DNA of 64,000 nt from Aureliella helgolandensis (GTDB lineage Bacteria; Planctomycetota; Planctomycetia; Pirellulales; Pirellulaceae): contig NZ_CP036298.1 in NCBI RefSeq assembly GCF_007752135.1, positions 372,001 through 436,000 of the forward strand, in the 5' to 3' direction. Positions within the stretch are counted from its first letter, which is position 1, and the number at the start of each line of letters is the position of its first letter. Shown here piece after piece: positions 11,957 to 55,653 of this stretch. Under the pieces are notes generated by a model that worked only from the letters and a program-made list of their open reading frames with translations, was not told where the DNA came from and ran no database searches. Position numbers and translations under genes: made by a program.

Positions 11957-12275
11957 GGAGGGGTCGGCAGGTGGATGACGTGGTGGGATGACGTGGTGGG
12001 ATGGATATGGGGGCTGCGGCAAGGATTCGTTGGTTGCGGGGGGCACAAATCGTGGGGTGAGCTTAGTACGAGTGATATACCTCTTTCCAAACGCGCTAAA
12101 CCTGGCTGTATGGCAATGACAAAGAGCTAAGGCTTCGTGCATTGCTTGATTCCAGGGCTTCGTTGTTCTAAACCCGTAGCAAGGCTACTCAACCCGCAAG
12201 CTGTTGAGGCTTAGTCCCCGCGGACTGGGCCGAACCCCACCGGCATGCAGGCCGAAAGCTTAGGCTAGACGATCA
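11957..12275. other. Intergenic stretch with a 13-bp tandem repeat
   Basis: 319 bases between two same-strand genes of module A. It contains two direct copies of GGATGACGTGGTG (11973-11985 and 11986-11998) followed by GGATGG, just upstream of the PPC gene start. A perfect 12-base palindrome, ATCACTAGTGAT (12272-12283), covers the stop codon of the upstream DUF1549 gene. No gene is recognisable. Confidence 0.5.
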
Positions 12276-14840: not shown

Positions 14841-16207
14841 TAAATCAACTCACTTACTGGGCTGGCATCGACGAGGTACTGGGGGCGACCGGTCGGATCG
14901 ACGATGGCGGTAGTGGCCGTATCAATCCCAAGGTTGTGATACAGTGTGGCGATGATTTCTTGGACATCCACGGGGCGTTCTGTGGCGTGTTCGCCGAGAC
15001 GGTTGGTGGCACCGATGGCCTGTCCGGCGCGAATGCCTCCCCCGGCAATGTAGGCGCAACTTACTTGCGACCAGTGGTCTCGTCCGGCACTGGCGTTAAT
15101 CTTTGGGGTGCGTCCGAATTCTCCCCAGACCACGACGGTCACATCATCGAGAATGCCTCGTTGGTCGAGGTCACTGATCAAGGCGCTGAGGCATTGATCG
15201 AGCTTGGTTCCATGATCACGGACGAGGTCAAAATTTTGGCCGTGGCTATCCCATCGACCGTAGCTGAGGCTGACGCAGCGGGCTCCGGCTTCGACCAAGC
15301 GACGCGCGATGAGGAGATGGTCGTTGCACGTTGGGGCACCATCGTACTGATACTTGTAAGGTTTTCCGTCACCATAGCGTTCAACGACTGCGGGGTCCTC
15401 TTGGGTTAGATCGAGAGCATCGAGCAATTTACTACTGGTTAGGACATCTAAGGCACGTTGGCCAAACGCGTCCATGCCTGCCATCATGCCGGAGGTGTCG
15501 ATGTCGCGGCGAAGGTTGTCGAGGCTCGACAGCAATGCGCGGCGGTCGCGGAGGCGTTCGAGCGAAATGTCATTGAGTTTCATGTTGTCCATGCCCGGGC
15601 CATCGGGCTTGAACGGGGCGTAGCTGGTACCTAAAAATCCAGGCGTACCGGCGTCGGACCAAGGCGCGTGTTTGGCGGGGGCGGCTAGGCCAACGTAGGC
15701 GGGAACTGCCGGGTCAACGGCACCCTGCAATTTGGCGGCTGCGGAGCCAATAGAGGGGCGTCCCCCGAGGGCTTGCATCTCGGTGGAAATCCAGCCGGTC
15801 AAGCACTGAGACGATTCATGCCGATCCTTGCAACCGACGACCGATCGAATCACGGCAGCCTTGTCCATCATGGCAGCCAGTTTGGGGAACACCTCGCAAA
15901 TTTGGATGCCTGGCACATTGGTGGGAATTGGACGAAACTCGCCACGGATCTCCGAAGGTGCCTCGGTCTTGATTTCCCACATGTCCTGGTGGGGTGGTCC
16001 CCCTGCCAGAAAGACATTGATGACCGCTTTATGTCCCAGTCCCGTAGTGCTCGATGGCGCCGAGCCTGCTGCCTGCTGCGATTCCGCCCGCAGGATGCTC
16101 GATAGTCCCAATCCACTGCCGCCGAAGGTCAGCCCTCCGATGGTTAGGAAACTGCGTCTGGAAAGTCCGCCACAGAGGCGATCCGGCTTGCCATACAATG
16201 TGAGCAT
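14840..16207 (-). CDS. DUF1501 protein, Tat-exported (module A)
   Basis: 455 aa, sulfatase-like alkaline phosphatase fold family of planctomycetes. A twin-arginine signal (LSRRSFLTIGGLTFGGSG) shows export in folded form. Family motifs are FLAGGPPHQDMWEIK, PEIRGEFRPIPTNVPGIQICE, FPKLAAMMDKAAVIRSV, SLSYGRWDSHGQNFD, VVVWGEFGRTPKIN and AGRDHW near the C-terminus. It is the first gene of module A and overlaps the DUF1549 gene by one base. The partner relation DUF1501-DUF1549 is conserved in this phylum; the substrate is unknown. Confidence 0.93.
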   Translation of the reverse strand: MLTLYGKPDRLCGGLSRRSFLTIGGLTFGGSGLGLSSILRAESQQAAGSAPSSTTGLGHKAVINVFLAGGPPHQDMWEIKTEAPSEIRGEFRPIPTNVPGIQICEVFPKLAAMMDKAAVIRSVVGCKDRHESSQCLTGWISTEMQALGGRPSIGSAAAKLQGAVDPAVPAYVGLAAPAKHAPWSDAGTPGFLGTSYAPFKPDGPGMDNMKLNDISLERLRDRRALLSSLDNLRRDIDTSGMMAGMDAFGQRALDVLTSSKLLDALDLTQEDPAVVERYGDGKPYKYQYDGAPTCNDHLLIARRLVEAGARCVSLSYGRWDSHGQNFDLVRDHGTKLDQCLSALISDLDQRGILDDVTVVVWGEFGRTPKINASAGRDHWSQVSCAYIAGGGIRAGQAIGATNRLGEHATERPVDVQEIIATLYHNLGIDTATTAIVDPTGRPQYLVDASPVSELI

Positions 16208-17495: not shown

Positions 17496-18866
17496 TTAGA
17501 TGTTGCCAATGTCTCGCAACAAGGATAGCAACGCTCGGCGTTCGATCATCCCCAAGGGGACTCCGTTCTCGTCGACCACTACGCTACGAAGCATTGGGGT
17601 GCGCTGTAGGGTTTGCCAGATTTGGTCGGCGGTTGTTTCGGGAGTAAATCGAGCGATGTTGCAATTCATTAGATCACGTAAAGGGGTGTCTAGCTCTTTG
17701 CGTGAAGCCATGGCATTGAGGTAGTCGCGTTCCGAGACCATGCCGACCAATTGCTGGTTTTGATTGACAACACAAGCGCTGTCGGCATTAGAAGCCAGGA
17801 AGGATGCCAGACTGGTGCGAAAGGATTCTTGTTCTCCGTAGATGGCAATTGAAGTCGTCATGAGCTTGTCGGCTGTGGTGCCCTTCAAGTCAGTGAGATG
17901 GCTTTCGACCGATAGATCGCAAGTCTGCAGTTGTTGACGTTGGAGACTTGAGTAGCTTTGGGTTCGGTCGCGTCCCTCGCTTTTGGCTGCCAACAGGGCC
18001 CGGTCTGCTTGTTCAAGTAGAGCGGTGAGGTTTTCACAATGCCCCAACAAGGGACTGACTCCCATGGTCGTTCGTACCATCATCTTGGCACCGATCACAT
18101 CGGCGGATCGGCTAGCGATCCGATTCCGCAGTTCCTCGGCAAATTGCACCGCTTGTGGCTCTTCGTAATCGGTGAGGAAAAGGCAGAACTCATCGCCTCC
18201 CAGACGCCCCGCGAGCTCCTGGTGCTGGCACATTTCCTTGATGATGCTACCCACCAATCGCAGGACCTCGTCCCCTACGGCGTGCCCGTATTCGTCGTTG
18301 TACTGTTTGAAGAGATCGATGTCCATCATCAGGCATGAAGCGGGGCGGTTGCGCGCCATGGCTGCTTCAATGGCCGTTTGGCTTCGTTCCACAAAGGTCC
18401 GGCGGTTCAATAGACCGGTCAATCCATCGATTTCAGCAAGTTCGGTTTGGATTTGGAGCTGGCGAATCGCGTTTTCGGCATTCTGGATTCTGGCGAGAAA
18501 CTCGTCTTCCTGAATGGGTTTGGACAGGAAGTCGTTGGCACCAGCAGCCATCGCTTCGGAGAGGTCGTCTCCTGAATCGCGTGAAGTTGCTATGAGGATA
18601 TAGACATGTTCATTGCAAAGTTTCGCTCGGATGGACCGACATAAATCGAGCCCCGACATCTCGGGCATATTCCAATCGGTGACCACAATCGGCGGGCAAT
18701 CGAATTCAGCTGCAGACCAGGCTCGAATTCCGTCCTCAGCTTGAGCGACCTGGTAACCAGATAATTCAAGCCATGCAGACATTAGCTTTCTTGTCGTGGG
18801 ATGATCATCCACAACAAGCACTTGCGGCCGTTTCATGCCGGTTACAGGATCAACAGACATCTGCAT
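17496..18866 (-). CDS. Response regulator with GGDEF and paired CBS domains
   Basis: About 456-aa cytoplasmic output protein predicted to make c-di-GMP from two GTP. Receiver domain at about 12-128 with phospho-acceptor D64 (VVTDWNMPEMSG) and Lys in LSKP. Diguanylate cyclase domain at about 145-305 with the intact active site RLGGDEF (GGDEF at 223-227) and DIDLFKQYND. The usual inhibitory RxxD site upstream of GGDEF is replaced by QHQE, so product inhibition is probably lost. Two CBS motifs (about 335-455) suggest adenine nucleotide sensing. The start is uncertain: ATG at 18866 or 18860, or TTG at 18872; all overlap the end of the HD-GYP gene, so translation is coupled. Last gene of the signalling block. 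Confidence 0.92.
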   Translation of the reverse strand: MQMSVDPVTGMKRPQVLVVDDHPTTRKLMSAWLELSGYQVAQAEDGIRAWSAAEFDCPPIVVTDWNMPEMSGLDLCRSIRAKLCNEHVYILIATSRDSGDDLSEAMAAGANDFLSKPIQEDEFLARIQNAENAIRQLQIQTELAEIDGLTGLLNRRTFVERSQTAIEAAMARNRPASCLMMDIDLFKQYNDEYGHAVGDEVLRLVGSIIKEMCQHQELAGRLGGDEFCLFLTDYEEPQAVQFAEELRNRIASRSADVIGAKMMVRTTMGVSPLLGHCENLTALLEQADRALLAAKSEGRDRTQSYSSLQRQQLQTCDLSVESHLTDLKGTTADKLMTTSIAIYGEQESFRTSLASFLASNADSACVVNQNQQLVGMVSERDYLNAMASRKELDTPLRDLMNCNIARFTPETTADQIWQTLQRTPMLRSVVVDENGVPLGMIERRALLSLLRDIGNI

Positions 18867-19962
18867 GCTCAAGCTGTACTTTTACGATATCGGAAACTCT
18901 ATTTAAAAATGCAGCAACGATGCGAGGATCAAAATGGGATCCACTTTCTTCGTCCAGGATGCTTAAGCATTGGTCTAACGAAAATGCTTTCTTGTAGGGG
19001 CGACGGCTACTCAACGCATCAAAGACATCTGCCACTGCAGTGATTCGTCCCTCCAGCGGAATGTTTTCACCACTCAGGCCCAGTGGATATCCCGTTCCGT
19101 CCCACCATTCGTGATGCGTTAATGCGATCGTGCGTGCCAAGGTGAGAGTCGGTGAACTGCAGACTTCCATGATCTGAGCACCAATGACCGCATGATTGGC
19201 CAACGACAGATTGAATTCGGTCGAAGGGGCACCCAGTACTTGGCCACCATATCCGCAGTGCTTTTGAATTTTGTCGATTTCCTCTTCGTTCAGCTTCCCT
19301 TCTTTTCGAAGGATGGAATCAGGAATTCCGATCTTTCCGACATCGTGAAGGGTCGCCGCTTGCTGCAGCCTTGCAATATGCTCTGGAGGCATTCCCAATT
19401 CATCCGCAATAATCGCCGCATATTTTCCAACGCGGACAATATGAGCGCCGGTGTCGCTATCGCGAAACTCGGCCGCGCGGGCCAAGCAGTGAATCAGTTC
19501 ATTTTGCGATTGCTCCAGTTCCACAGTACGCTGGTCGACCTGGGCTCGCAAATCGTCCTCGTAAGATTTCACCAGTAGGCTGTTGCGAACGCGCGGAAGC
19601 AATTCATCGACGTCGATCGGCTTAGTCAAGAAGTCGGTGGCTCCCAATCGGAGCGCTTGATTCTTTAGGTCGCGGCTATCGGCACCTGTAAGGATAAGGA
19701 TAGGTAGTCGCTGGGTTTCTGGTTCCGCCCGCAACGCTTGTAGGATCTCTAAGCCACTGATGCCCGGCATCATGATGTCGAGCAGTAACACGTCAGGATT
19801 CGCATTACGGATCGCAGTCAATGCTTCCGCTGGATCGGACAAAGTGATGAAGTTGAGATATCCAGCTGTCTCAAGGTGAGCACGCGCAACCCTAATGTTA
19901 ATTGGGATGTCGTCAATGATCATAATCGTTGACGACGTCAATTCGCTGATGGTGGCGAGCAT
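18850..19962 (-). CDS. Response regulator with HD-GYP domain
   Basis: 370-aa protein predicted to hydrolyse c-di-GMP when its receiver is phosphorylated. Receiver domain at 10-130 with D62 (VLLLDIMMPGISG) and K in FLTKPID. A short coiled linker (QVDQRTVELEQSQNELI) joins the HD-GYP domain (about 155-360) with HD in TLHDVGKIGIPD (206-207), the HHEWWDGTGYP signature (283-293) and the following LSGENIPLEGRI and VADVFDALSS. All metal ligands appear present. It is 98 bp downstream of the hybrid kinase gene and overlaps the GGDEF regulator, so enzymes of opposite effect are made together. Confidence 0.94.
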   Translation of the reverse strand: MLATISELTSSTIMIIDDIPINIRVARAHLETAGYLNFITLSDPAEALTAIRNANPDVLLLDIMMPGISGLEILQALRAEPETQRLPILILTGADSRDLKNQALRLGATDFLTKPIDVDELLPRVRNSLLVKSYEDDLRAQVDQRTVELEQSQNELIHCLARAAEFRDSDTGAHIVRVGKYAAIIADELGMPPEHIARLQQAATLHDVGKIGIPDSILRKEGKLNEEEIDKIQKHCGYGGQVLGAPSTEFNLSLANHAVIGAQIMEVCSSPTLTLARTIALTHHEWWDGTGYPLGLSGENIPLEGRITAVADVFDALSSRRPYKKAFSLDQCLSILDEESGSHFDPRIVAAFLNRVSDIVKVQLEHADVC

Positions 19963-20060
19963 CTTGGGCCTACGAGTCCCGAAAGCGGAAGAGATTCGAA
20001 TGTTGTTCTTGGGATGTAGTGAACACTAGCTCAGAGTTCGAGGGGATGCGGTGAAATGAT

Positions 20061-22553
20061 TCAACATACTTGGGGAGTGGCTGTAATTTGTTGGGTCAAT
20101 TCGCCCAGCACAGCCAAGGATTCTTCGATGTCGGTCAGGTTTTCTTCTTTGGCTGCATCCCAGAGGTGGACTGATGGATCGGTTAGAGCGGCAAATCCGG
20201 CTGTACCCCCAGCCCCCTTCAGCCCATGCGCTAACTGAGTTAAGGCTTCGAAATCTCGCTTGACATAGGCCGTCTGCATATCGTGCACATGACTATTGAG
20301 GAAACCCACAAATTCTTCCACAATCTCTTGGTAGATCGGGATCTCCAGAGGTAGGGTGGATTTGAGTTGTGCGGGAGAGTACTTAGCGGAACTTGGCGGT
20401 GTGACAGGCTCAGAGGTGGGAGGGGGGAGATTGGCGACCGAGCCAGGTTTACCCTGGCAAAGCAAATTGCGAACGGTGCTTAGCAAGACGGCGGCCCGAA
20501 TCGGTTTGGTCAAGTAATTCGAGCAACCGGCGGCCAAGCACTTCTCTTCATCCCCTTTCATGGCGTGTGCGGTGAGAGCTAGGATGGGGGTTGTGATTCC
20601 CTCCTCTCGGATTTTGGATGCTGCGGTATATCCGTCCATCACGGGCATTTGCATATCCATCACAATCAGGTCAAACGGCTCGCGCCGCGCCGTCTGGACT
20701 CCCAGCCAGCCGTTTTCGGCAGTCGTTACCGAAACGCCCGCATCCTCCAGCATGATCTTCACCAGCTTGCGATTGATCTCGCCATCTTCAACCAGCAGGA
20801 CTGAACTCGCGGGCAAGCGAATTGTTTCGACGGGGATAGAGTCGAGAGTCCCCATCAGAGCATCAGCAGGCGGAGCGACGAGCAAGTCCACGTTGTGGAG
20901 TGGACCTGTCTTCACCTTCAAAATAAAGACACTCCCCTGCCCTTCCTGGCTCTCTACCTGCAGCTCACCTCCAAGTGCCGATGATAACCTGCGAGAAATA
21001 GCCAGACCCAAGCCGGTGCCACCATAGCGTCTAGTGACTGAGTTGTCGGCTTGGGCGAATTGGCTGAAGATCCGCGATTGCTTTTCGCTAGGAATGCCAA
21101 TACCAGTATCGATGACTCGAATCGTTAACGTTTCAGTGGAAGGGTCGAGTTCGGCATTGATCCTCACAGATCCTTCAACCGTGAATTTGATCGCATTGCC
21201 CACTAGATTCATCAGCAATTGTCGTAGCCGTCCGCCGTCGGTTACGATCGATTCGGGAACTTTGCTCTTCCACTCATATCGCAGCTCCAGTCCCTTTTGT
21301 TGTGCTTGCGCTCGCATTACGCTGACGACTTGGTTCAGCACATCGTGGGGTGAGCAAGGAGAGAGTTCGACCTCCAATTGTCCTGCTTCGATCTTGGAAA
21401 GATCCAAAATGTCATTGATCAAGGCCAGTAGGTGCTGACCACTGGAGGAGATTGTTTCCAGGTAGTCTTGGCGGAGTGCTGGATCCGCACTGGCGGAGGA
21501 TTGAGTCAGAAGTTCGGCAAAACCCAGGATGCCGTTGAGAGGTGTGCGGATTTCGTGACTCATGTTCGCAAGAAATTCGCTCTTCGCTCGACTGGCCGCT
21601 TCTGCTTCATCGCGAGCGACTACCAAAGCGTCTTGCACGATTTGGCGATTTTCGATTTCCTGTGTCAATTGTGCGGTGCGTTGTTGCACGCGATCCTCTA
21701 GGCGGTTGTTCGCCGATTGCAGGGCTGCTTTGGAAGATTGGATTTCGTCCAGCATGCTGTTGAAGGTGACGCCCAGTTCGCCCAATTCGTCGTTGGACTG
21801 TGGGGAGACCCGGATCGCAAAGTCTTTTCCCTCCTTTACCGATTTTGCTGCAAGGGCTAAATCCTTAACCGGCTCTGAAATGGAGCGTTGCAGCAGGAAC
21901 GACATCGCCCCAGCGCCTGCCAAGGATAGTAGCATGATCCCAGCGCCAATCAGTAAATAGCGACGAATATGAGCGTATAGATCCGACATGTTGGCCAACA
22001 CGTAAATGGATCCGATCTGCTCTTGCTCATCGGTGATTGGATGAAAGACTTCGATGCCCTTGTCTGTGATGCGATAACCGCTGGGGAGTGATTCCGTTTG
22101 GCGAACTGCAGAATTGGGGGTGGAGCTGAACTCTGCAAATAATTTTCCCGTGTCGTCATACACGCACACGTATTCGACTGTTGGATACATTGCCATTGAA
22201 GCAAGTAGTTCACCGGCGGCTGCCTGGTCCTGAAATGTCAGCACACCGGTGCTATTGAACGCCAGCATCTTGGCTTGGGATTCCAACTGGTCGACTTTGG
22301 ATTGGCGAATAAACTGCAAGTCATGTGCGGCCATACCAGCAAAGCCGATAAGCAGTGCAAGTACCGCCGAGGTGGAGGCAAGGATAAAGAGCTTGGTCTT
22401 AATCGACACATTGCGCAGCAACTGGGACGGTGTTTTCGGGACGAAGTGATGCGACGTCTTTGAATGGCAATCGCTCAAGATATCAGGGGCTTTGGCTAGG
22501 GCTATGGGGTTGCATTCTAGTTCCTTGGCGTAGTAATCTCGCGTCCATTGCAA
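20061..22553 (-). CDS. Hybrid sensor histidine kinase, CHASE8-like sensor, HAMP, REC and Hpt
   Basis: 830-aa inner-membrane kinase. TM1 about 53-77; periplasmic region 78-197 whose pattern AKMLAFNSTGVLTFQD ... YVCVYDDTGKLFAEF looks like the CHASE8 sensor of YfiN; TM2 about 198-222; HAMP to about 275; coiled coil; HisKA with H333 (SHEIRTPLNGILGF); HATPase with NAIKFT, DTGIGI and GGTGLGLAISRRL; receiver with VMDMQMPVMDGY; C-terminal Hpt with LAHGLKGAGGTAGF. Phosphate would pass H-D-H and then to the two downstream regulators. The start overlaps the YfiR-like gene by 71 bp; a later GTG at 22409 just before TM1 is an alternative. In YfiBNR the CHASE8 protein is a cyclase held off by YfiR; here it is a kinase. 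Confidence 0.92.
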   Translation of the reverse strand: MQWTRDYYAKELECNPIALAKAPDILSDCHSKTSHHFVPKTPSQLLRNVSIKTKLFILASTSAVLALLIGFAGMAAHDLQFIRQSKVDQLESQAKMLAFNSTGVLTFQDQAAAGELLASMAMYPTVEYVCVYDDTGKLFAEFSSTPNSAVRQTESLPSGYRITDKGIEVFHPITDEQEQIGSIYVLANMSDLYAHIRRYLLIGAGIMLLSLAGAGAMSFLLQRSISEPVKDLALAAKSVKEGKDFAIRVSPQSNDELGELGVTFNSMLDEIQSSKAALQSANNRLEDRVQQRTAQLTQEIENRQIVQDALVVARDEAEAASRAKSEFLANMSHEIRTPLNGILGFAELLTQSSASADPALRQDYLETISSSGQHLLALINDILDLSKIEAGQLEVELSPCSPHDVLNQVVSVMRAQAQQKGLELRYEWKSKVPESIVTDGGRLRQLLMNLVGNAIKFTVEGSVRINAELDPSTETLTIRVIDTGIGIPSEKQSRIFSQFAQADNSVTRRYGGTGLGLAISRRLSSALGGELQVESQEGQGSVFILKVKTGPLHNVDLLVAPPADALMGTLDSIPVETIRLPASSVLLVEDGEINRKLVKIMLEDAGVSVTTAENGWLGVQTARREPFDLIVMDMQMPVMDGYTAASKIREEGITTPILALTAHAMKGDEEKCLAAGCSNYLTKPIRAAVLLSTVRNLLCQGKPGSVANLPPPTSEPVTPPSSAKYSPAQLKSTLPLEIPIYQEIVEEFVGFLNSHVHDMQTAYVKRDFEALTQLAHGLKGAGGTAGFAALTDPSVHLWDAAKEENLTDIEESLAVLGELTQQITATPQVC

Positions 22554-23088
22554 GTTGTTTACGTTTCGCTTCCTCTAGGTTGATCTCAAATTGAATCTGC
22601 CCATTGGATTCCACGAAGTTGACCACGGTCCCGTTGGGACGCGAGGAGGATTCGGTAACGGTCAAAACCGAAGTTTCTTGCAATCGCCCCATCAGGGCGG
22701 CGATATCGACTGGAAAGATCGTTGCGGACACAAACAGCAGATCGCAGTCTGTCAGCTCGACATCGAGCACGGACTGGTAGTAGATGACCTTGATAGGCCG
22801 GTCGTGTACCGTCCGCTTGCCGGCGATCTTCTCCAGGCTGCTGCGAACTCCGGCGGATCCAACAATTCCAATCCGAAATTCCGGATGGAGGGCGAACTCT
22901 TGGGCGGGCCACTGAGTAAAACGCCCAAAGCTATAGAGATAGACAGCCTTAATGTTGTCTGCCTTGGCGATTTTCAGAATTGCAGCTTGTTCGGGCGACG
23001 TCGTGGTGGCCTCTTGGCCAGTCGCCCAGGCAGCAAAACACAAGATTCCCAGCAGCGATGCGAACAATCGAAGTGCTGCGGAAAGCAT
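22483..23088 (-). CDS. YfiR-like periplasmic protein (DUF4154)
   Basis: 201-aa protein with a signal peptide (LRLFASLLGILCFAAWATGQ) and the whole DUF4154 domain: KAVYLYSFGRFTQWP at the start, IGIVGSAGV, the KVIYYQS strand, CDLLFVSATI, and the end signature VNFVESNGQIQFEINLEEAKRKQLAMDARLL. In Pseudomonas, YfiR is a periplasmic repressor that binds the sensor domain of YfiN and responds to redox or envelope signals. Here it is 114 bp downstream of a TonB-dependent receptor and overlaps the kinase gene, so it most likely controls that kinase. No Cys pair is seen in the mature domain apart from a single Cys in DCDLLF, so disulfide switching as in Pseudomonas is unlikely. Confidence 0.9.
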   Translation of the reverse strand: MLSAALRLFASLLGILCFAAWATGQEATTTSPEQAAILKIAKADNIKAVYLYSFGRFTQWPAQEFALHPEFRIGIVGSAGVRSSLEKIAGKRTVHDRPIKVIYYQSVLDVELTDCDLLFVSATIFPVDIAALMGRLQETSVLTVTESSSRPNGTVVNFVESNGQIQFEINLEEAKRKQLAMDARLLRQGTRMQPHSPSQSP

Positions 23089-48146: not shown

Positions 48147-48509
48147 TTAACCTTGTTGCTGAACTTTGAGCCGCTTTTGGATATCCGTTTCGAGGACTCC
48201 AAAGACCGCTTCATGGCGTTGCACCGACATTTGAAGTGCGGCCAACAGACGCTTGGCTGTGTAGAAGTTCAAGATAACGCGTTGGTTAACGTGAATTGGG
48301 TCCTTGGGAACACCCACGGGTTGTGGGTTCAGTCCAAAGTCGACAATCAACTCTTCAGGCGATCCTGTAACGCGGCAGAAATTTGCATAGGCGGTATTCG
48401 CATGCGAATCATCCACTTGGACTTGGACCGGTTGTGATTGTTGCTGCGGAGTAGCAGGTGCGGCGGCTGCCGTGTCTTGGTCCGCGGTGTTTTGATCTGT
48501 GTCTGCCAT
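48147..48509 (-). CDS. DUF3467 domain protein
   Basis: 120 aa. The ATG at 48509 has AAGGAAAGG eight bases upstream, which decides against the TTG two codons earlier. An Ala/Gln/Asp-rich N-terminus (about 1-32) is followed by the family domain: TAYANFCRVTGSPEELIVDFGLNPQ, HVNQRVILNFYTAKRLLAALQMSVQRHEAVFG. DUF3467 proteins are small cytoplasmic proteins in many bacteria with no established function; structural similarity to gas-vesicle or phage proteins is not evident. A terminator follows, and the upstream operon ends 137 bp away, so it is its own unit. Confidence 0.9.
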   Translation of the reverse strand: MADTDQNTADQDTAAAAPATPQQQSQPVQVQVDDSHANTAYANFCRVTGSPEELIVDFGLNPQPVGVPKDPIHVNQRVILNFYTAKRLLAALQMSVQRHEAVFGVLETDIQKRLKVQQQG

Positions 48510-48645: not shown

Positions 48646-50886
48646 TTACATTTCGAGTCTGAATGTGCGTGCGCAGAATCTGTAAATTCTCCATCCTATC
48701 GATTTCCAACCTACGTAAATCTTGGCTTGTCCTCGATAGCCGCTGCGAAGTGACACGTCAACATCTTCAAGGGGAACGCGAGCTTGGTAAGATGTACTGA
48801 TGGGGCGCATGCGCCCCGACTCGTCCATCTCGGTGTCGAGTCGACCACCGGCCTGAAGGGCTAGGTTCTCCGGAGAGATTCGCATCTCCATTTTCGATAT
48901 CTTCTCTATCTTGCCAGAAAACGTCTCCAATCTGGCAGAATCTATTTTGATATCGACCTCGATTTCCTCGTGCACTAGGTCGATATCGTGCTGATCGACA
49001 ACTAGTACCGCTTCCATTCGGTTTGGATCGCCTACGAAACAAAGGAGGTCTGATTGCGAAAAAACGGCATCTTGGTTTTTGTCGTCAAACGGGTTGCCGC
49101 TCCACATGGGGAGTTGCTCTTCGATCTCTGCCGCTTTCGGAGCCGGCTTATTGGGACCGGGCAGAATGACTCCATCCGCTTTGGATTTAATGTGCAACTG
49201 TTGCATTTTTTCCCAATGTTGGTCGACCAGCTGTTGTTTGGAGGCCACCAGTTCCTTTTGGGTTTTGATTTGAGCTTGGGCTTGAAGATCGGAGTTCTTC
49301 TGATCGATGTATCCCGCCAGACGCACCTGGGCAATCTCCAGCTCGCTGGTGAGTTGCGCGAGACGGTAGCGCATTTCCAGGCTCTCCAACTCCGCGATGG
49401 TCTCGCCGGTTTGTACCCGATCGCCTGGCTTCTTATTCCAGGAGACCAATCGCCCGGGAACCATGGCGAAGACCTGCTTGGCGTCCTGGGGTTGGATCTC
49501 GACGGCGCAGTCCACGTGGTAGGGGAGCGGAATCCAGCAAATGCCAACGATGGCAGCTGCAGCAACGGCCAAGCTGGTTAGAACGTTCTTTCTCTTCATC
49601 TTGCTAGCTCGCCCTGGAGTGCGGAAGAATTTAATGGTTTGCCAAACGGGTTGGATGATCATGCCGGCCAAACCGCTGATCGCGATCAGTCGACCGAGTG
49701 CTTGCAAGCCGTAGGGTTCGAGGACTTTCATCAAGAACATCATGATGGAGAAGACGACGACCCAGCGGTAGATGATCGAGGCGACGGTGTAGAGTGCGAA
49801 CCAGCCTTGCTTCTGATGCGGTAGGAATGGGTTGTCCTGCAATTCAAGTCCGAGACAGTATTTTTGGAACCAGCGTTTGAGGATCTCCGTTGCCTTCTGA
49901 CGCAGGTTGGGGATTTCGAGGATGTCCATCAGGATGTAGTACCCGTCAAATCGCAGCAATGGGTTACCATTGAAGACCACGGTACTGACGGAGCAGATGA
50001 ACATGACCGACAGGCACAGGAAGTTCAGCATTCCTGGCTGGCTGAACCACCACAGGTAGGTGGCGATCGATGCCAAGATCAATTCGACATACATCCCGGC
50101 CGCGCCAATGAAAACGCGATGCCACTTATTCGGAAGCATCCACGAGTCGGAGACGTTGCAGTAGAGGCAGGGTGTGAATACCAGGAACATGAATCCCATC
50201 TCATGGCATTCACCGCCGTAGCGCTTGCAGCTCAAACCGTGCCCGAATTCGTGCAGAACCTTGACGATGCCCATCGTAGCCCCCAACCAGATCCAGTTGT
50301 GGGCAGCAAAGAATTGTTCAAACGTTGGCAGCTTCGTTCGGAACTCCTGAAAATTCACCAACACCAACATGAGGGCGCTCAGGCCAAACATGGAGATCAG
50401 GATCAAGGCCGGGAGGGTAAAGATCCACCAAGTGAATGGATTGAGAAAGTTCAGGATGCGCTCGGGATCAATTCCGCGGAATCGCAAGGCGAAGATGTTC
50501 GCTAGCTTGCCGAGTCGCTCCTTCTTCACTTTCTCGTCACCACGTCGCCGAAGCTGTCTACCCTGGCCGGTGGCTTGGGAGATCACCAGTCCGCTGCGGT
50601 GCAGCATGCCGACGAATTGCTGAAGGTCTTGCAGCGTGATTCGTTGGGGCGCAAATTCTGATTGAAAACGATCTTTGATTTGCTGCAGGCTGGTAAGACC
50701 GTCGAGCATATTGAGGATCGCAAACTCTTCATCGTGGAAGCGATAGTAGTTCAGGCCCACGGGTTCTTTGACGACCCAATAGCTGCGTCCGTGGTAGCGG
50801 TGTTTTTTGGATTCTAAGTCGGGTCGTCGGCGCAGCTGCAGGGGCCGCATCGCGCTGTTGACCAAACTGTCCGCCATCGAAGTCAT
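48646..50886 (-). CDS. PqqD-like / site-2 protease (M50) / HlyD fusion protein
   Basis: 746-aa membrane protein combining three parts. Residues about 28-105 look like a PqqD-type peptide-binding winged helix (YRFHDEEFAILNMLDGLTSLQQI ... FVGMLHRSGLV). Residues about 150-425 are a multi-pass M50 metalloprotease with the zinc motif HEFGH (212-216) and the third ligand in NGNPLLRFDGYY (D314); both look intact. After a helix at about 435-453 comes a HlyD-like membrane-fusion domain (VDCAVEIQPQDAKQVFAMVPGRL, GDRVQTGETIAELES, long coiled hairpin, DGVILPG). It is the last gene of a three-gene operon, 183 bp after the HlyD adaptor. Peptide processing coupled to export is the simplest idea, not proven. 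Confidence 0.9.
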   Translation of the reverse strand: MTSMADSLVNSAMRPLQLRRRPDLESKKHRYHGRSYWVVKEPVGLNYYRFHDEEFAILNMLDGLTSLQQIKDRFQSEFAPQRITLQDLQQFVGMLHRSGLVISQATGQGRQLRRRGDEKVKKERLGKLANIFALRFRGIDPERILNFLNPFTWWIFTLPALILISMFGLSALMLVLVNFQEFRTKLPTFEQFFAAHNWIWLGATMGIVKVLHEFGHGLSCKRYGGECHEMGFMFLVFTPCLYCNVSDSWMLPNKWHRVFIGAAGMYVELILASIATYLWWFSQPGMLNFLCLSVMFICSVSTVVFNGNPLLRFDGYYILMDILEIPNLRQKATEILKRWFQKYCLGLELQDNPFLPHQKQGWFALYTVASIIYRWVVVFSIMMFLMKVLEPYGLQALGRLIAISGLAGMIIQPVWQTIKFFRTPGRASKMKRKNVLTSLAVAAAAIVGICWIPLPYHVDCAVEIQPQDAKQVFAMVPGRLVSWNKKPGDRVQTGETIAELESLEMRYRLAQLTSELEIAQVRLAGYIDQKNSDLQAQAQIKTQKELVASKQQLVDQHWEKMQQLHIKSKADGVILPGPNKPAPKAAEIEEQLPMWSGNPFDDKNQDAVFSQSDLLCFVGDPNRMEAVLVVDQHDIDLVHEEIEVDIKIDSARLETFSGKIEKISKMEMRISPENLALQAGGRLDTEMDESGRMRPISTSYQARVPLEDVDVSLRSGYRGQAKIYVGWKSIGWRIYRFCARTFRLEM

Positions 50887-51069
50887 AGCATTGCTCGTCG
50901 CAGTTAGGCTGAAAAGCTGAAAACAAACAAGGGAAGGGGTTTACGCCAGTGCTTGCAAGCGTGGCAGGCATCGCCAAACCTCACGGAGGGGGCGGTTCCA
51001 GTAGGAGTTCACGCGAGTGTTGGTGTGGCCTACTGGGGGTGTGGCGTGCACGAAGCAAGTTACGAGCTG

Positions 51070-52002
51070 TTAGCGGCGTTGGATTTGTACATCAGCATGC
51101 ATTCCGTCGCGCAGCAGCCAGGGCCCGCCAGGTTGCACACGCTGGTTTTTGACTTTAGCCCAGACCATGACTTCCCCGGCATTCACATACGGGCTGACAA
51201 ATTCAACTTGAGCCTGAAAATCCGCCTTGAATTGGGGGCTGACTCGCACGGAAATCGTCATGGGAGCTCCCTGCAATTCGGATGGAGAAATCTGCTCCAC
51301 GGGAACTTGGGCTTCGATCCGCATTTCGTTCAGGTGCACCAATTTGAGGATTGGTTCCCCGGATCGAATCCATTCACCGCGATCTCGCATGCGTTCGGTG
51401 ATGACTCCTTCGAGCGGAGCGAGAACTTCATAGAGTCCTAGGCGAACTTCGGCGGCATGCAATTTTTCGGCCGAGACATCGGCGGCGAGTTGCTCTTGTT
51501 CTTTTTTGATCCTGGCCACGTCGACTCCCAGACGCCCCTTTTCCTTTTCGAGCTCTGCTCGGCGGCGTTCGGATTCGGAGGATGCGCCTCTGCTCAGCAG
51601 GCTCACGATGTCTTCAAATTCGGCTTGGGACACCTTGTAGGATGCTTCGGCGAATTCGATGTCGGCTACTTGCTTGGCTTGTTTCTTGGCCGCTTCGAGC
51701 TCTTTGGCGGCAACTTGGACTTCCGCAGATTGGATGCGATCGTCGATCTTGATCAAGCGTTCTCCCTCGGCGACGGTTTGGCCTGCCTCAGCAAACATTT
51801 GTTGGATCAAGCCGTCCGCCTGGGCAGCCACCTCGATCTCATGGATGACTTTGACGAGCGCGCCCTCAATGGTAATCGTGGAATCGCTGTAGGTAGCACG
51901 CGAAGGGCTAGCCGAACGCGTTTCTTGACTGAAGGCGGTGGTCGAAAAGCTCACAACGACCAGCGAGCCGACCAACAGCATTATTTTATGGCGAATAGAC
52001 AT
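51070..52002 (-). CDS. HlyD-family periplasmic adaptor protein
   Basis: 310 aa from the ATG at 52002, which begins a signal peptide or anchor (HKIMLLVGSLVVVSFSTTAFSQ); the frame is open upstream through the end of the previous gene and that part is not coding here. The barrel-sandwich half motifs EVAAQADGLIQQMFAEAGQTVAEGERLIKIDD and YEVLAPLEGVITERMRDRGEWIRSGEPILKLV flank an alpha-helical hairpin (about 75-165, rich in Glu/Lys/Ala). A beta-barrel follows (MRIEAQVPVEQI). Adaptors bridge an inner-membrane pump to the outer membrane. Here the neighbours are other HlyD-containing proteins, not a pump. It begins 50 bp after the GAF-HlyD gene. Confidence 0.9.
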   Translation of the reverse strand: MSIRHKIMLLVGSLVVVSFSTTAFSQETRSASPSRATYSDSTITIEGALVKVIHEIEVAAQADGLIQQMFAEAGQTVAEGERLIKIDDRIQSAEVQVAAKELEAAKKQAKQVADIEFAEASYKVSQAEFEDIVSLLSRGASSESERRRAELEKEKGRLGVDVARIKKEQEQLAADVSAEKLHAAEVRLGLYEVLAPLEGVITERMRDRGEWIRSGEPILKLVHLNEMRIEAQVPVEQISPSELQGAPMTISVRVSPQFKADFQAQVEFVSPYVNAGEVMVWAKVKNQRVQPGGPWLLRDGMHADVQIQRR

Positions 52003-52051
52003 GAGTAGCCTTGTATTGATGCAGATGAGGTTGAGGTGGTTTCGAGCTGTG

Positions 52052-54097
52052 CTAGAAAATAACGTTGGCTTGCACCCATTCGATAACTTCGTGGAACCAG
52101 ACAAAGGCTGCCGAACGCCTACCGCAGGTGACATCGGCAATGACCTTCGCTCCAGGTCGTGGGCTGATACCCTCCATGGAATTGGGGTGCACGCGAAGCT
52201 TAACGACTGCCCCCTCGGTGGAATCCAATTCTGCCCGCGCGTGGATGGCATCTATTGACAGCGTCCCCTGGTGATCCACTGAGGGATCGGTGGCTAGGAT
52301 GAAATCGACCGGCAGTGGTTGTCCGCCAGACGCTTCAATCGCTTGATCCAGATACCGCATGCGTTTTTCTGGCATGAGCAACTCGAGCTCGAATTCTCCA
52401 TTGGGATCAGCTACCGTTACCAGGACTTGGCCGGTGACTACCGGGCGTGCACGGAGCATCTTCTTCAAGTCCCAAGTCATGACAATGCCATCGATGGGAC
52501 TGCGAATAGTCAGTTTTTGCTCTTTCTCTTGGAGCAATTCATACTGTTCCAACAGAGCTTTTTCGTGAGCCACGTGTTCTCGACCTTGGTAGGTCAGCTT
52601 GACACGCTCGGCGCGGTCTGCGGCACGGTTCTGAAGTTCTGCGACGGCGACGATTTGCTCGCGGGTTTGGTCTAACTGGCCATTGAGCTCCGAGAGTTGA
52701 ATTTCCAGGTCACGGTTGCGCAGTTTAACGAGTGGCTGTCCCGCCAGGACGGCTTCGCCATGTTCCACGAACACCTCTTCGACTTCACCATCGACATGCG
52801 CGAAAACTTGCCGTTGCGTCTTCGGTTGCAAGGAGCCTTGGGCTTCCAGGTCATGATTGATGTGCACCAGGAACAGGGCCAGTAGGCCGACAGCCAGGAG
52901 GCTCAGCACCGTCATGGTCTTGGGGAAGGTGGAGCCGCGGAAGAGCCAAGTGGCACGCCCGAGCGTCCGCCAGACGGGCATCAGGAACAAGTCGCTGTGG
53001 GTCATGGAATTGTTGAGAGCCCGAGCCGCATGCTCGTAGACTAAATCGCACCGCGAACGCAAGGCTTCGGGGGGGACTTGGCTTTCGATCTGTTCGACGA
53101 TCAAGGCGCCAATGATTTCACGCTTGGAGAGGTCTTCGCGCTGGACTGTTTCCTTGGAGTGCACATCCCCTTCCACGACTTTCTCGGGGCGGCGAATCGG
53201 CAGCACGGCGATGGAGCGCCCGTGGGACAGGTCTACGTAGTCCTCGATCGCTTCTTCGAGCTGCGGGGGGAGGTCTTCCACCGTGCCGTCATACCACAGG
53301 GACTCTCCAGCCGAGACGACGCGAGTGGCTAAGTTGTTGAGGGCTGTCACGATATTCGAGCGATTCTCGATCGTATCCTGTCCGCTAATCGCTTCGACTT
53401 TGCATTTGCGGCCCTTCTGGATGGCCACGCTCACACGGTCGCAACCGATGAGCTGGCGGCCTTCATTGGCAATGGTGAAGGCGGTGTCGCGTTTTTCCAA
53501 ATTGTCATGCACCAAGCGGGCGAAGTGATCGGCCTTTTGCCACATCACTTGCCGGTCGGATACCTTTTGCAAGGTCCGCCCCTTAAGCCACTCTCCAATC
53601 AGGCTGGCCATCTGATCCAGGAAACGCATGTAGCCGCGTTGGATGTTGGGAGCCGAATTGGGGCGTTGGAAGATTTCCACCAAGCCTGCGGTCTGCTTTC
53701 CACCACTCGACAGCGGCGAGACCACCAGCAGGTATTGTGAGGGATTTCCCTCGTCCTGCCCTTCGCCCAGCATCGAGTGGGGTGGTACCAATTCCGATTG
53801 TCCACGCTGATAGAGGCGGGACAGCAATTTGGCATGCTTGGCCGCATCGTCGCTGTGGGCTTCCAGCAGGTTTTGATTGACGTTGATCTGATAGCTTAGC
53901 TTGAGCTGCCCCTCGTCATCGAGCAGCCAAATGGCGCCACCCACGGCAGCCAGGGCGTCGACGATTCGCTTGAGGACAGCCGGGAAGAACTCTTCGCTGG
54001 GGGCGTCGGCTCGCGATAGCTCCGCGATCTCGTTGATCAAGGTGCGGATCTGCTGCTTAGTCTGCTCGACTGTCTCTTGGGAGGGTGTGGAAGCCAT
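52052..54097 (-). CDS. Tandem GAF / transmembrane / HlyD-like protein
   Basis: 681 aa from the ATG at 54097 (MASTPSQETVEQ); open frame upstream is not used. Two GAF-like sensor domains (about 35-170 and 190-345; the first with VGGAIWLLDDEG, NPSQYLLVVSPL, AGLVEIFQRP, the second with LIGCDRVSVAIQKG, GRSIAVLPI, IGALIVEQIE) lie in the cytoplasm. A single helix (394-414, TMTVLSLLAVGLLALFLVHI) leads to a periplasmic HlyD-like part: FAHVDGEVEEVFVEHGEAVLAGQPLVKL, a coiled hairpin, and IRSPIDGIVMTWDLKKML. So a cytoplasmic ligand sensor is joined to a membrane-fusion domain. First gene of the operon. Confidence 0.9.
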   Translation of the reverse strand: MASTPSQETVEQTKQQIRTLINEIAELSRADAPSEEFFPAVLKRIVDALAAVGGAIWLLDDEGQLKLSYQINVNQNLLEAHSDDAAKHAKLLSRLYQRGQSELVPPHSMLGEGQDEGNPSQYLLVVSPLSSGGKQTAGLVEIFQRPNSAPNIQRGYMRFLDQMASLIGEWLKGRTLQKVSDRQVMWQKADHFARLVHDNLEKRDTAFTIANEGRQLIGCDRVSVAIQKGRKCKVEAISGQDTIENRSNIVTALNNLATRVVSAGESLWYDGTVEDLPPQLEEAIEDYVDLSHGRSIAVLPIRRPEKVVEGDVHSKETVQREDLSKREIIGALIVEQIESQVPPEALRSRCDLVYEHAARALNNSMTHSDLFLMPVWRTLGRATWLFRGSTFPKTMTVLSLLAVGLLALFLVHINHDLEAQGSLQPKTQRQVFAHVDGEVEEVFVEHGEAVLAGQPLVKLRNRDLEIQLSELNGQLDQTREQIVAVAELQNRAADRAERVKLTYQGREHVAHEKALLEQYELLQEKEQKLTIRSPIDGIVMTWDLKKMLRARPVVTGQVLVTVADPNGEFELELLMPEKRMRYLDQAIEASGGQPLPVDFILATDPSVDHQGTLSIDAIHARAELDSTEGAVVKLRVHPNSMEGISPRPGAKVIADVTCGRRSAAFVWFHEVIEWVQANVIF

Positions 54098-54663: not shown

Positions 54664-55653
54664 TTGAAGAATCAAGCTTTGCAGCATGCACTCGAGGAAT
54701 TACCCGGAGAGTCGATTGGTGCGTCGTCTCCTCAGGTCAAGCGATTGGGGGAGTTGGTCGACGGCGAGCTGCCCTTGCAGATGTTTCTGGAGAAGCTCTT
54801 GCCGGAATTGAGCCAGTTACTGGGTGGGCTGGCGGCGGTCGCGTGGATGAAGGCGCAGGGGGCAAGTGGAGCGGTCTTTGGCATCCGCTACCAGATGGAT
54901 GCCTTGTTGGGCTCGATCTCGGAGCAAAAAAAACACGAGCGCTTGGTGCAGTTGGCTTGGCAGCAGAAGCAGCCTCTCCTGGCAGAGCCCGCTAGGCTGG
55001 GGCGCAAGGTTTCGCCGCCAGACGCGGTGCATTCCCCCGATTCAACGCACGTGGCCGACTTGTCGCAGACACCCGGTGGTGCAAATCCCACCTCTTATCC
55101 ACTGCTGTTTGGCCCAATTCTCCATTTGGGAGAGCCGGTGGCGCTGCTGGAGATCGTCTTGGCCGAGCAGGCACAGCCGCTCAGCCAGAAGCAAAGGCAG
55201 TTGTTCCTGCGCGCCATACAACTCATTTGCGAGCGAGTGTATGGAGGGTTGCGTCGTCGCATGACATTGCCAGCCGCTACGCTGGTCCAAGCAGAGGAGC
55301 ACATGCAGCAGCTGACCGAAGAGGTCAAGGTGATTCAGCAACAGATTGTTCGCAGTATTGAGACTCGCCTGCAAACCTTTTTCGGTTGGTCTTTCGCTTC
55401 TCTGGCCGAAAATCAGGCTTTCGCCAAATTGGTCCACCACTTGCTAGATAGCCATGGGCTGCGTGTCGTCTGTCCCGAGTGCGGTCATCCCGCTATTCTG
55501 CGCTGTTTGCGAGCGGGCAACGCGAAGCATGGAGCCTTTGTGTTCGATCACTATCTGGAAACCGGTCGCACCTTCCATGGTGGCCCCACGACAGTTCCAC
55601 TGATTCGAGTTGTTTCTAAGCCAGCCCGCCGCGTTGCGTCAAGTGCTGGGTGA
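54664..55653 (+). CDS. GAF-like protein with C-terminal zinc-type site
   Basis: 329 aa; the start is taken as TTG at 54664 because the N-terminal helix (LPLQMFLEKLLPELSQLLGGLAAVAW) aligns with the first GAF domain of the divergent GAF-HlyD protein, although no ribosome site is clear. Residues about 40-195 match that domain in patches (KHERLVQLAWQQKQPLLAEP against KHAKLLSRLYQRGQSELVPP; NPTSYPLLFGPI against NPSQYLLVVSPL). A helical linker (205-235) follows, then a C-terminal part with C270, C273, C281, H296 and H305 (VVCPECGHPAILRC ... FDHYLETGRTFHGG), probably a zinc site. No membrane helix is seen, so cytoplasmic. I know no named family for the C-terminal part. Confidence 0.8.
   Translation: MKNQALQHALEELPGESIGASSPQVKRLGELVDGELPLQMFLEKLLPELSQLLGGLAAVAWMKAQGASGAVFGIRYQMDALLGSISEQKKHERLVQLAWQQKQPLLAEPARLGRKVSPPDAVHSPDSTHVADLSQTPGGANPTSYPLLFGPILHLGEPVALLEIVLAEQAQPLSQKQRQLFLRAIQLICERVYGGLRRRMTLPAATLVQAEEHMQQLTEEVKVIQQQIVRSIETRLQTFFGWSFASLAENQAFAKLVHHLLDSHGLRVVCPECGHPAILRCLRAGNAKHGAFVFDHYLETGRTFHGGPTTVPLIRVVSKPARRVASSAG

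Follow-up and report, generated by a model that had tools for sequence, protein, structure and literature searches.

An adaptor operon of Aureliella helgolandensis as the probable membrane half of a secondary-SecA export module for large LEPR-motif proteins

Introduction

Three consecutive minus-strand genes in a 64,000-nucleotide stretch of the Aureliella helgolandensis genome (hereafter, the window) encode proteins with HlyD-like membrane-fusion domains, raising the question of what such a set of adaptors might export and what would power it. A sequence-only reading of the window described the genes as an export-like operon without a pump, suggested that sensing, peptide processing and export could be physically linked in it, and was aware of no precedent for this precise combination. 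The set was in fact described by Kamneva, Poudel and Ward (2015; PMC4452313), who reported the trio GAF-HlyD, HlyD and M50-HlyD beside a secondary SecA_DEAD ATPase that is missing all or most of the wing/scaffold. In the accessible part of that paper, SecA is proposed as the ATPase and M50 as the pore, some modules have a TolC-type OEP and the module has no ABC component, module parts are sometimes encoded apart, and the broader biological role of the module is termed completely unknown; PqqD, DUF3467, LEPR, cadherin and giant are not mentioned in that part of its main text.

A planctomycete N-terminal export signal, RRLxxExLExRxLLA, was reported by Studholme et al. (2004, as cited in PMC8567305), and eight of the ten longest proteins of Tuwongella immobilis have a signal of this type (PMC8567305). 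As far as the text of PMC8567305 was accessible, its section on the signal names no machine and its main text mentions neither SecA, HlyD nor LEPR. Our literature search found no machine assigned to the signal and no cargo assigned to the module. Based on sequence comparisons, we propose that the locus supplies the membrane and periplasmic components of the type-I-like, secondary-SecA module for export that Kamneva et al. described, with large LEPR-motif proteins as its probable cargo, a reading to which we give a probability of roughly 0.6.

Results

Gene organization and the M50 fusion protein

The first gene (52052–54097, minus strand, 681 aa) encodes a GAF-GAF-single TM-HlyD protein, in which two cytoplasmic GAF domains (Pfam PF01590, E = 1.8e-6; PF13492, 3.6e-6) are separated from a periplasmic membrane-fusion domain (HlyD_3, 2e-8) by a single hydrophobic window at residues 395–413. 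It is followed by a free HlyD/RND-type periplasmic adaptor with an N-terminal hydrophobic segment (51070–52002, minus strand, 310 aa, ATG at 52002; HlyD_3, 1.4e-14), and by a fusion of a PqqD/RRE-like N-terminus, an M50 site-2 protease and an HlyD domain (48646–50886, minus strand, 746 aa; Peptidase_M50, 1.1e-7; HlyD_3, 3.9e-8). The sequence-only reading was thus right about the architecture: HlyD-like domains in three genes in a row, a GAF pair joined to one of them through one helix, and a free adaptor as a separate gene. Foldseek searches with AlphaFold2 models of the 681-aa protein (pLDDT 84.5, pTM 0.39) and the fusion (pLDDT 80.6, pTM 0.52) gave MacA, MexA and AcrA as best matches overall, and, with Pfam, identify the HlyD parts as the family of periplasmic adaptors used in type I secretion. 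A fourth conserved gene, overlooked in the earlier reading, encodes a DUF3467 protein as a module accessory (48147–48509, minus strand, 120 aa counted from ATG; PF11950, 1.4e-24). The divergent gene at 54664–55653 (plus strand, 329 aa), whose membership of the module is uncertain, matched no Pfam or NCBIfam model above cut-off; its cluster (cluster 6) was found in 8 of 80 related loci in addition to the window.

The protease part of the fusion is intact in its motifs, as the earlier reading claimed. Its zinc motif HEFGH (50239–50253, minus strand, residues 212–216) and third zinc ligand region NGNPLLRFDG (49942–49971, minus strand, residues 306–315) provide the HExxH and NPxxxxDG elements of an M50 site-2 protease amid membrane helices, as judged from the alignment and the AlphaFold2 model. 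H212, E213 and H216, as well as N306, N308, P309, D314 and G315, are invariant in an alignment of 33 M50-fusion homologues (A2, which omits locus L084 because of stops in the stretch), and HExxH is kept in 94 of 94 homologues checked. Plasmid homologues vary in the third zinc ligand region (e.g., SPFMRFDG and NPLQRFDS).

The N-terminal domain (50581–50847, minus strand, residues ~14–102) scored weakly against PF05402 (PqqD) as a single sequence (E = 0.012, under cut-off), and 21 of the 33 homologues matched that model at E ≤ 0.05 (best 2.2e-4). A profile of the homologues' N-termini (A4) aligned over positions 14–102 with residues 9–94 of the PqqD structure 3g2b (E = 4.8e-5) and also matched TfuB1 (6jx3_B, E = 0.005). 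The modeled domain has strands at residues 25–31, 34–41 and 46–51, then helices at 52–60, 67–77 and 85–97. Since only adaptor proteins were among the 50 Foldseek matches listed for the whole fusion chain, that search lends neither the PqqD nor the M50 part a fold match of its own. Rather than departing from PqqD, the N-terminus matches it by profile, in agreement with the sequence-only reading.

Conservation of the module and its separate motor

In a neighborhood survey of 80 planctomycete loci kept from 118 confirmed loci (2 of the 80 titled only "bacterium"; the window excluded from all counts), ORF clustering retrieved the M50 fusion from 78 loci, the free HlyD protein from 61 and the GAF-HlyD protein from 59 (clusters 0, 1 and 2), recovery being reduced by the many short contigs and by the loss of some genes to overlapping antisense ORFs. 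The gene order GAF-HlyD, HlyD, M50-HlyD is conserved, often with DUF3467, which was present in 27 of the 68 planctomycete loci whose sequence continues for 800 nt or more past the 3' end of the M50 gene, and in five of the 17 loci on proteobacterial plasmids. The sensor, RRE/PqqD-like fold, intact intramembrane protease and export adaptors form one conserved module, which supports this side of the sequence-only reading. Of the other neighborhood clusters, 8 and 11 resemble antisense shadow ORFs and were excluded from use, and cluster 19 was shared by no more than 4 loci. Query P0003 had no match in the plasmids, and query P0005 yielded no function.

The description of the operon as lacking a pump does not hold for the genome as a whole. 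A secondary SecA-like gene encoding 705 aa lies 3.1 Mb from the module (G000:C1:3546339-3548453), so that the apparent lack of a pump reflects the extent of the window. The encoded protein combines SecA_DEAD and PP_bind, has no SecA_SW match, and is 62% identical to an operon copy of a relative. A divergent BBP7 porin gene adjoins it, a pairing also seen in 7 relatives. Among the 80 loci from other planctomycetes, 13 have the SecA-like gene upstream in the same orientation; it falls within the locus in 12 of the 44 that have at least 6 kb upstream. Because the accessible text of PMC4452313 reports cases of separation, the non-adjacent SecA_DEAD gene does not exclude membership of the module.

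Across 246 Planctomycetota genomes, the M50 fusion (E ≤ 1e-20) was found in 57, and a secondary SecA (an open frame <760 aa at E ≤ 1e-120, plus genomes G002 and G034, counted because the gene adjoins that of the M50 fusion) occurred in 33 of these 57 versus at most 4 of the 189 M50-lacking genomes, a comparison among related genomes that is uncorrected for kinship and in which truncated frames of canonical SecA may account for three of the four cases without M50. SecA-like copies from three relatives (L027, L092 and L093) scored below the NCBIfam SecA2 model cut-offs.

Large proteins with an N-terminal LEPR motif accompany the module

The NCBIfam model NF012209 (LEPR-XLL, named LEPR-8K) scored above cut-off in two of seven N-termini tried, both of the proteobacterial LLSAD type, failed to match any of the three planctomycete and two DUF4347-type N-termini tried at E ≤ 0.01, and gave one match, just above cut-off, in the A. 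helgolandensis genome. Because it was too insensitive in planctomycetes, we built a motif profile (A1) of 18 rows (4 from A. helgolandensis, 9 operon neighbors and 5 proteobacterial), which is thus trained on neighbors of the system. At least two matches to this profile were found in 21 of the 57 genomes with the M50 fusion versus none of the 189 without it (Fisher P = 1.6e-15; 7e-15 without A. helgolandensis; genomes related and kinship uncorrected), and this co-occurrence involves 10 family labels. At E ≤ 0.02, 22 of the 57 M50-bearing genomes had no match and 15 of the 189 M50-lacking genomes had one, where ~4 were expected and the reversed-motif decoy gave 9. The decoy matched singly in 10 of the 246 genomes (1 with M50, 9 without).

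For 12 of the 119 planctomycete motif matches, an M50 or SecA gene is no more than 10 kb away, where 1.04 would be expected, although two of the 12 (both in genome G121) resemble training rows of the profile; the other 107 are unlinked to the system. All 28 matches inspected (16 from A. helgolandensis, 12 system-adjacent) start 15–144 residues past the upstream stop. No motif gene was found in the 64 kb of the window.

Of the 17 proteobacterial plasmid loci, all but L092, L095, L096 and L118 were covered at the N-terminus in question. Eleven of the 17 have, upstream of the operon, a long gene with the motif close to its start, and two (Magnetospirillum L120 and Indioceanicola L123) had no motif in the stretch examined. 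The regular expression was widened after the first N-termini had been inspected, and in its final form matched nothing else in 508 kb of plasmid sequence scanned. Three loci have particular features: the motif gene lies one gene further upstream in L098, in L121 the frame runs off the end of the available sequence, which hides its true start, and the motif precedes the annotated start in L126. The form LEPRxLL(S/N/A)AD was present in all five SecA-type loci read, and LE(P/A)Rxx(F/Y)DA in five of the six loci read that have TolC and no SecA alongside, the exception (L094) having the SecA-class motif. The flavor of the motif thus tends to track the class of the system. Genes for DUF4347 proteins occur on 40 Phaeobacter plasmids; as the M50 search listed ten genera and Phaeobacter was none of them, DUF4347 cargo may have another exporter.

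Discussion

A proposed export route

The co-occurrence of motif and module, and their linkage in two phyla, make it likely that the module is paired with the N-terminal LEPR signal. The proposed cargo proteins, often thousands of residues long, would have no classical signal peptide and be recognized by an N-terminal basic stretch and the motif ExLEPRxLLxAD. We suggest that this leader is bound in the cytoplasm by the PqqD/RRE-like domain of the M50 protein, that the SecA-like ATPase without its wing/scaffold domain threads the chain and so couples energy to export, and that the M50 membrane domain gates the path, cleaves the leader, or both. The three HlyD-bearing proteins would form a periplasmic conduit to the outer membrane, where the channel would be TolC in Proteobacteria and the BBP7 porin is a candidate in Planctomycetes. 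The GAF pair may tie the assembly to a cytoplasmic small-molecule signal.

Three alternatives were weighed. LEPR proteins could use ordinary Sec to traverse the inner membrane, the module processing or anchoring them afterwards, with M50 cleaving the leader as a maturation step and the SecA-like and HlyD parts acting at a later periplasmic or outer-membrane step. Such a route would fit the co-occurrence and linkage data equally well, and a protease kept intact in every homologue checked would suit a maturation role, but it leaves no obvious role for a dedicated SecA-like ATPase, and most LEPR N-termini have no Sec-like hydrophobic core. By simple hydropathy, the maximum over 12 residues was ≤1.8 in 25 of 28 planctomycete motif N-termini (the stretches may include untranslated residues) and in all 9 proteobacterial N-termini measured (of the 11 read), whereas two local controls reached 2.72 and 2.21. 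We consider this alternative unlikely.

More doubtful still is a set of efflux adaptors for small molecules or metals served by an RND or ABC pump from another locus, with M50 and GAF as regulatory parts. Its appeal lies in the Foldseek matches to MacA, MexA and AcrA and in the best NCBIfam model for the free HlyD protein, the RND adaptor TIGR01730 (E = 3.1e-23; 82.2 bits, under the cut-off of 94.9). However, the 892 ORFs of the 80 planctomycete loci contain no ABC signature LSGGQ and no TolC match, and in two phyla the linkage is rather to long genes and a SecA-like ATPase. In the window, where RND families were also searched, 30 further ORFs had no ABC, RND or TolC family at E ≤ 1e-5 (Pfam), in accord with the earlier reading, which had counted consistent linkage to a known exporter against itself. 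With no pump seen beside the genes, we rejected efflux. The window also holds an MFS transporter and a cation-efflux gene, both >30 kb from the module. In the annotated proteobacterial plasmid tables, no ABC gene adjoins the system; L116 has an ABC transporter operon ~8 kb from its M50 gene.

The peptide route raised by the sequence-only reading, taken here as a daptide- or epipeptide-like system that matures and exports a small ribosomal peptide, is very improbable and was rejected. The PqqD/RRE-like fold and the alignment of the daptide protease model NF041824 over residues 28–410 (E = 8.6e-54) speak for it. Against it, that model reached 183.1 of the 300 bits and the epipeptide protease model NF058609 (YydH/LiaK) 51.6 of the 225 bits demanded by their equivalog cut-offs, the clustered neighbors (ORFs ≥70 aa called) include no short precursor gene that recurs, the linked proteobacterial genes are long, and our candidate cargo consists of large proteins with an N-terminal leader motif.

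Returning to export of LEPR proteins by the secondary-SecA module, the 2015 module was a machine without a cargo and the LEPR signal, as reported in the accessible literature, a cargo without a machine; their pairing gives one testable hypothesis. It predicts which surface proteins a module knockout would lose and offers, in the LEPR leader, a possible rule by which exported proteins of planctomycetes and several proteobacteria could be annotated. An exporter that combines a SecA-like motor with an RRE-type domain and a site-2 protease would also be unusual. A broader and more tentative proposal, which we hold at somewhat less than even odds, is a separate Gram-negative secretion class in at least two phyla, with an RRE-read LEPR leader, a SecA-like motor without its own SecY, an M50-adaptor fusion as gate and leader peptidase, a GAF on/off switch and giant cargo, accompanied by a TolC sister class with an LEPRxxFDA leader. 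If true, its cargo would include some of the largest bacterial proteins, and the changed leader of the sister class would show leader-receptor co-evolution.

Comparison with known systems

The daptide protease (NF041824) and YydH/LiaK (NF058609) have an M50 core of the same kind as the fusion described here, and the daptide model also aligns with its PqqD-like region; the fusion differs in its extra HlyD domain, and no peptide precursor was seen among the ORFs called (≥70 aa). Type I secretion systems (HlyB/HlyD/TolC) recognize a C-terminal signal. They share with the module HlyD-type adaptors, TolC in some proteobacterial loci and very large cargo, whereas here no ABC transporter was found, the signal is N-terminal, and M50 and SecA-like parts are present.

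The signal of Studholme et al., as cited in the accessible text of PMC8567305, is the same motif as that of the N-termini studied here, where it is tied to the module, to proteobacterial LEPR-XLL proteins and to DUF4347 proteins; NF012209 catches the LLSAD-type N-termini and misses the planctomycete and DUF4347-type ones tried. All parts of the module of Kamneva et al., as given in the accessible text of PMC4452313, are present in A. helgolandensis, namely M50 with HlyD, GAF with HlyD/biotinyl-lipoyl, a separate HlyD protein and SecA_DEAD without SecA_SW, although the SecA_DEAD gene stands beside the others in their description and far from them here. To that module, as described there, our analysis adds a link to cargo, a putative leader reader and DUF3467.

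The operon and the module it belongs to

In transcription order, the minus-strand operon encodes a GAF-GAF-TM-HlyD protein of 681 aa (52052-54097), a 310-aa HlyD-type adaptor (51070-52002), a 746-aa fusion of PqqD-like, M50 and HlyD domains (48646-50886) and a DUF3467 protein (48147-48509), with successive gaps of 49, 183 and 136 nt. The source genome is a single contig of 8.44 Mb, and its relatives are planctomycetes. The M50 domain probably stays catalytic, since HExxH was kept in all 94 fusion proteins checked (79 from planctomycete loci, that of the window included, 14 from plasmids and one paralogue from the same genome); residues H212, E213, H216, N308, P309, D314 and G315 were invariant in a 33-row alignment. 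No ABC, RND or TolC family was matched at E ≤ 1e-5 in 30 further open reading frames (ORFs) of the window, and no SecA-like gene was seen within its 64 kb. Elsewhere in the window (17496-23088, minus strand), a run of signalling genes for a GGDEF/CBS response regulator, an HD-domain response regulator, a CHASE8 hybrid histidine kinase and a YfiR/HmsC-like protein lies next to a TonB receptor.

A scan of genome contigs yielded 118 relatives, of which we kept the best 80, 78 with titles naming a planctomycete group or genus. ORF clustering of these best 80 of 118 loci found the M50 fusion in 78, the free HlyD in 61, GAF-HlyD in 59 and DUF3467 in 29 (27 of the 68 loci whose sequence continues for 800 nt or more downstream of the fusion gene). 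A SecA-like ATPase of ~660 aa was encoded upstream on the same strand in 13/80 loci, or 12 of the 44 with at least 6 kb upstream, and in one of them (L030) an opposite-strand gene separates it from the operon. BBP7-type porins occurred in eight loci, seven of which also carried the SecA gene. Neither the ABC signature LSGGQ nor a TolC match was found among the 892 ORFs of the best 80 loci. Divergent from the operon in the window, a plus-strand gene (54664-55653) encodes a 329-aa protein that matched no family above its cut-off and whose cluster recurs in 8/80 related loci.

The operon had been read from its sequence as lacking a pump, but the same genome encodes, outside the window, a 705-aa SecA-like ATPase (C1:3546339-3548453) that is 62% identical to one relative's operon copy and has SecA_DEAD, PP_bind and P-loop domains, with no match to SecA_SW. 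As in relatives, a divergent BBP7 porin gene adjoins it (locus L107, 4713-6074, minus strand), a pairing shared with seven relatives, and this porin is a candidate outer-membrane exit in Planctomycetes. Because the SecA-like gene and its BBP7 partner lie far from the trio of GAF-HlyD, free HlyD and M50-HlyD genes, the cluster appears to be split in this genome. A second, diverged trio is present at ~C1:2.32 Mb (locus L091, G000:C1:2312001-2332000, positions 9929-15561, plus strand); its first protein had no GAF match at E ≤ 0.05, and the 20 kb of L091 had no match to SecA, TolC or DUF3467.

The operon genuinely belongs to a module that was published in 2015, and a claim to a new system therefore fails. 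The sequence-only reading had known of no described system with exactly this set; the consulted text of Kamneva, Poudel and Ward 2015 (PMC4452313) describes the same set, an association of secondary SecA_DEAD, GAF-HlyD, HlyD and M50-HlyD in five phyla, and records that an OEP (TolC-type) protein is sometimes present and that module parts can be encoded apart. Our results for 246 Planctomycetota genomes are in line with that text: the M50 fusion, called at E ≤ 1e-20, was found in 57, and a secondary SecA, called by a rule of our own, in 33 of these 57 compared with at most four of the 189 others.

A PqqD-like N-terminus on the M50 fusion

The proposal that the N-terminus of the M50 protein is PqqD-like gained support from its homologues. 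PF05402 matched the single fusion sequence at an E of only 0.012, but it matched 21 of 33 homologues at E ≤ 0.05, the best reaching 2.2e-4. When the N-terminal ~110 residues of 26 homologues were combined into a profile, it matched the PqqD structure 3g2b at 4.8e-5 and TfuB1 (6jx3_B), a leader-binding RRE, at 0.005. The PqqD/RRE fold consists of three strands and then three helices, and the N-terminus of an AlphaFold2 model of the fusion (pLDDT 80.6, pTM 0.52) has three strands, then three helices. Because a Foldseek search with the whole chain gave adaptor proteins only among the 50 matches listed, the PqqD part not being among them, the assignment has sequence support without an independent fold match.

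A leader motif associated with the system

Plasmid searches by tblastn gave 81 records with the M50 fusion and 76 with a proteobacterial relative. Our proteobacterial sample comprised 17 plasmid loci (508 kb in total), eight with a SecA-like ORF and nine with TolC, one locus having both and one neither. The gene directly upstream is often enormous (for example 12,918, 10,518, 8,847 and 16,239 aa, as measured from the annotation). In all 11 loci read, a set outside which fall the N-termini of L092, L095, L096 and L118, the long upstream gene carries a common motif near its start: LEPR or LEAR (or MEPR, IEPR), a hydrophobic pair, an acidic, small or asparagine residue, and alanine. These motif proteins span 1,213 to 16,239 aa. 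The final regular expression, widened once the first motifs had been seen, matched those 11 places only in six frames of the 508 kb, with no match in the fetched stretches of L120 and L123. One more long gene lies between motif gene and operon in L098, and in L121 the fetched stretch ends inside the motif-gene frame. On the reverse strand of L126, WP_343211605.1 (a 24 kb gene) has its annotated start downstream of the motif, but the open frame extends further upstream and includes the motif, so that start may be misplaced.

Motif flavour tends to follow system class in the loci read, with an LLSAD-like form in 5/5 SecA-type loci and an FDA/YDA-like form in 5/6 TolC-without-SecA loci; only L094 departs from this, its fetched stretch having TolC and DUF3467 without SecA, yet a motif of the LLSAD form. 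A point against pairing such motif proteins with the system is that genes for DUF4347, one type of proteobacterial motif protein, occurred on 40 Phaeobacter plasmids, and Phaeobacter is absent from the genera named in the M50 plasmid search. Three alphaproteobacterial plasmids carry SapC-family genes near the SecA-type system (L093 14206-15027; L126 1558-1601; L118 17202-18032, the last judged solely from how its initial residues resemble the L093 protein), a possible further accessory part. Public annotation labels the secondary SecA-like proteins of L093 (15020-17044) and L114 (17177-19093) 'prepilin peptidase', which hides the system in public records. A TolC-class relative on the E. coli plasmid NZ_CP081687.1 (L096) adjoins the gene for a 4,459-aa Ig-like protein, and Citrobacter plasmids gave matches as well.

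An 18-row motif profile run against the 246 Planctomycetota genomes gave 134 matches in 50 of them. At E ≤ 0.02 the motif was found in 35/57 genomes with the M50 fusion versus 15/189 without, and at least two matches in 21/57 versus 0/189, spread over 10 family labels (Fisher 1.6e-15, or 7e-15 with A. helgolandensis left out, kinship ignored in both). A reversed-motif decoy gave single matches in 10/246 genomes, one with M50 and nine without, so most of the 15 motif-positive M50-less genomes may be noise. Against the link, some M50 genomes are without motif matches and some motif genomes without M50. Most planctomycete matches are unlinked to the system. Among the 119 matches in M50 genomes, 12 (from 10 genomes) were no more than 10 kb away from a gene for M50 or secondary SecA, versus 1.04 expected, two of the 12 (both G121) resembling training rows.

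All 28 matches inspected, 16 from A. helgolandensis and the 12 near the system, begin 15-144 residues past an upstream stop codon. Most motif-bearing N-termini lack a hydrophobic core of the Sec type: peak hydropathy in a 12-residue window was at most 1.8 in 25 of these 28 and in all nine proteobacterial ones tried, compared with 2.72 and 2.21 in controls. Studholme et al. 2004, as cited in PMC8567305, proposed this same motif, RRLxxExLExRxLLA, as a signal in R. baltica. The consulted text of PMC8567305 reports 52 T. immobilis genes with a form of the motif, which 8 of that organism's 10 longest proteins carry, and its main text, as consulted, mentions neither SecA nor HlyD.

Proposed mechanism and relation to known systems

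Beyond the observed gene set, its conservation, the separate ATPase and the association of motif and system, we propose that the PqqD/RRE-like domain of the M50 fusion would act as leader reader, since such folds bind leaders elsewhere and the two system classes tend toward two leader flavours. With HlyD domains on three proteins, the adaptor ring may be a mixed one, and a cytoplasmic small molecule may exert control through the two GAF domains. The SecA-like protein would be the motor, as Kamneva et al. (PMC4452313) proposed of the ATPase; a point against this is that the TolC class must be powered in some other way. The same consulted text proposes M50 as the pore, and given the kept HExxH, cleavage of the leader or gating would fit better than a mere pore. 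It calls the module's broader biological role completely unknown, and PqqD, DUF3467, LEPR, cadherin and giant go unmentioned in its main text, as consulted. A link between module and signal was absent from the open-licence literature searched, and pairing this orphan machine with an orphan N-terminal signal makes both testable.
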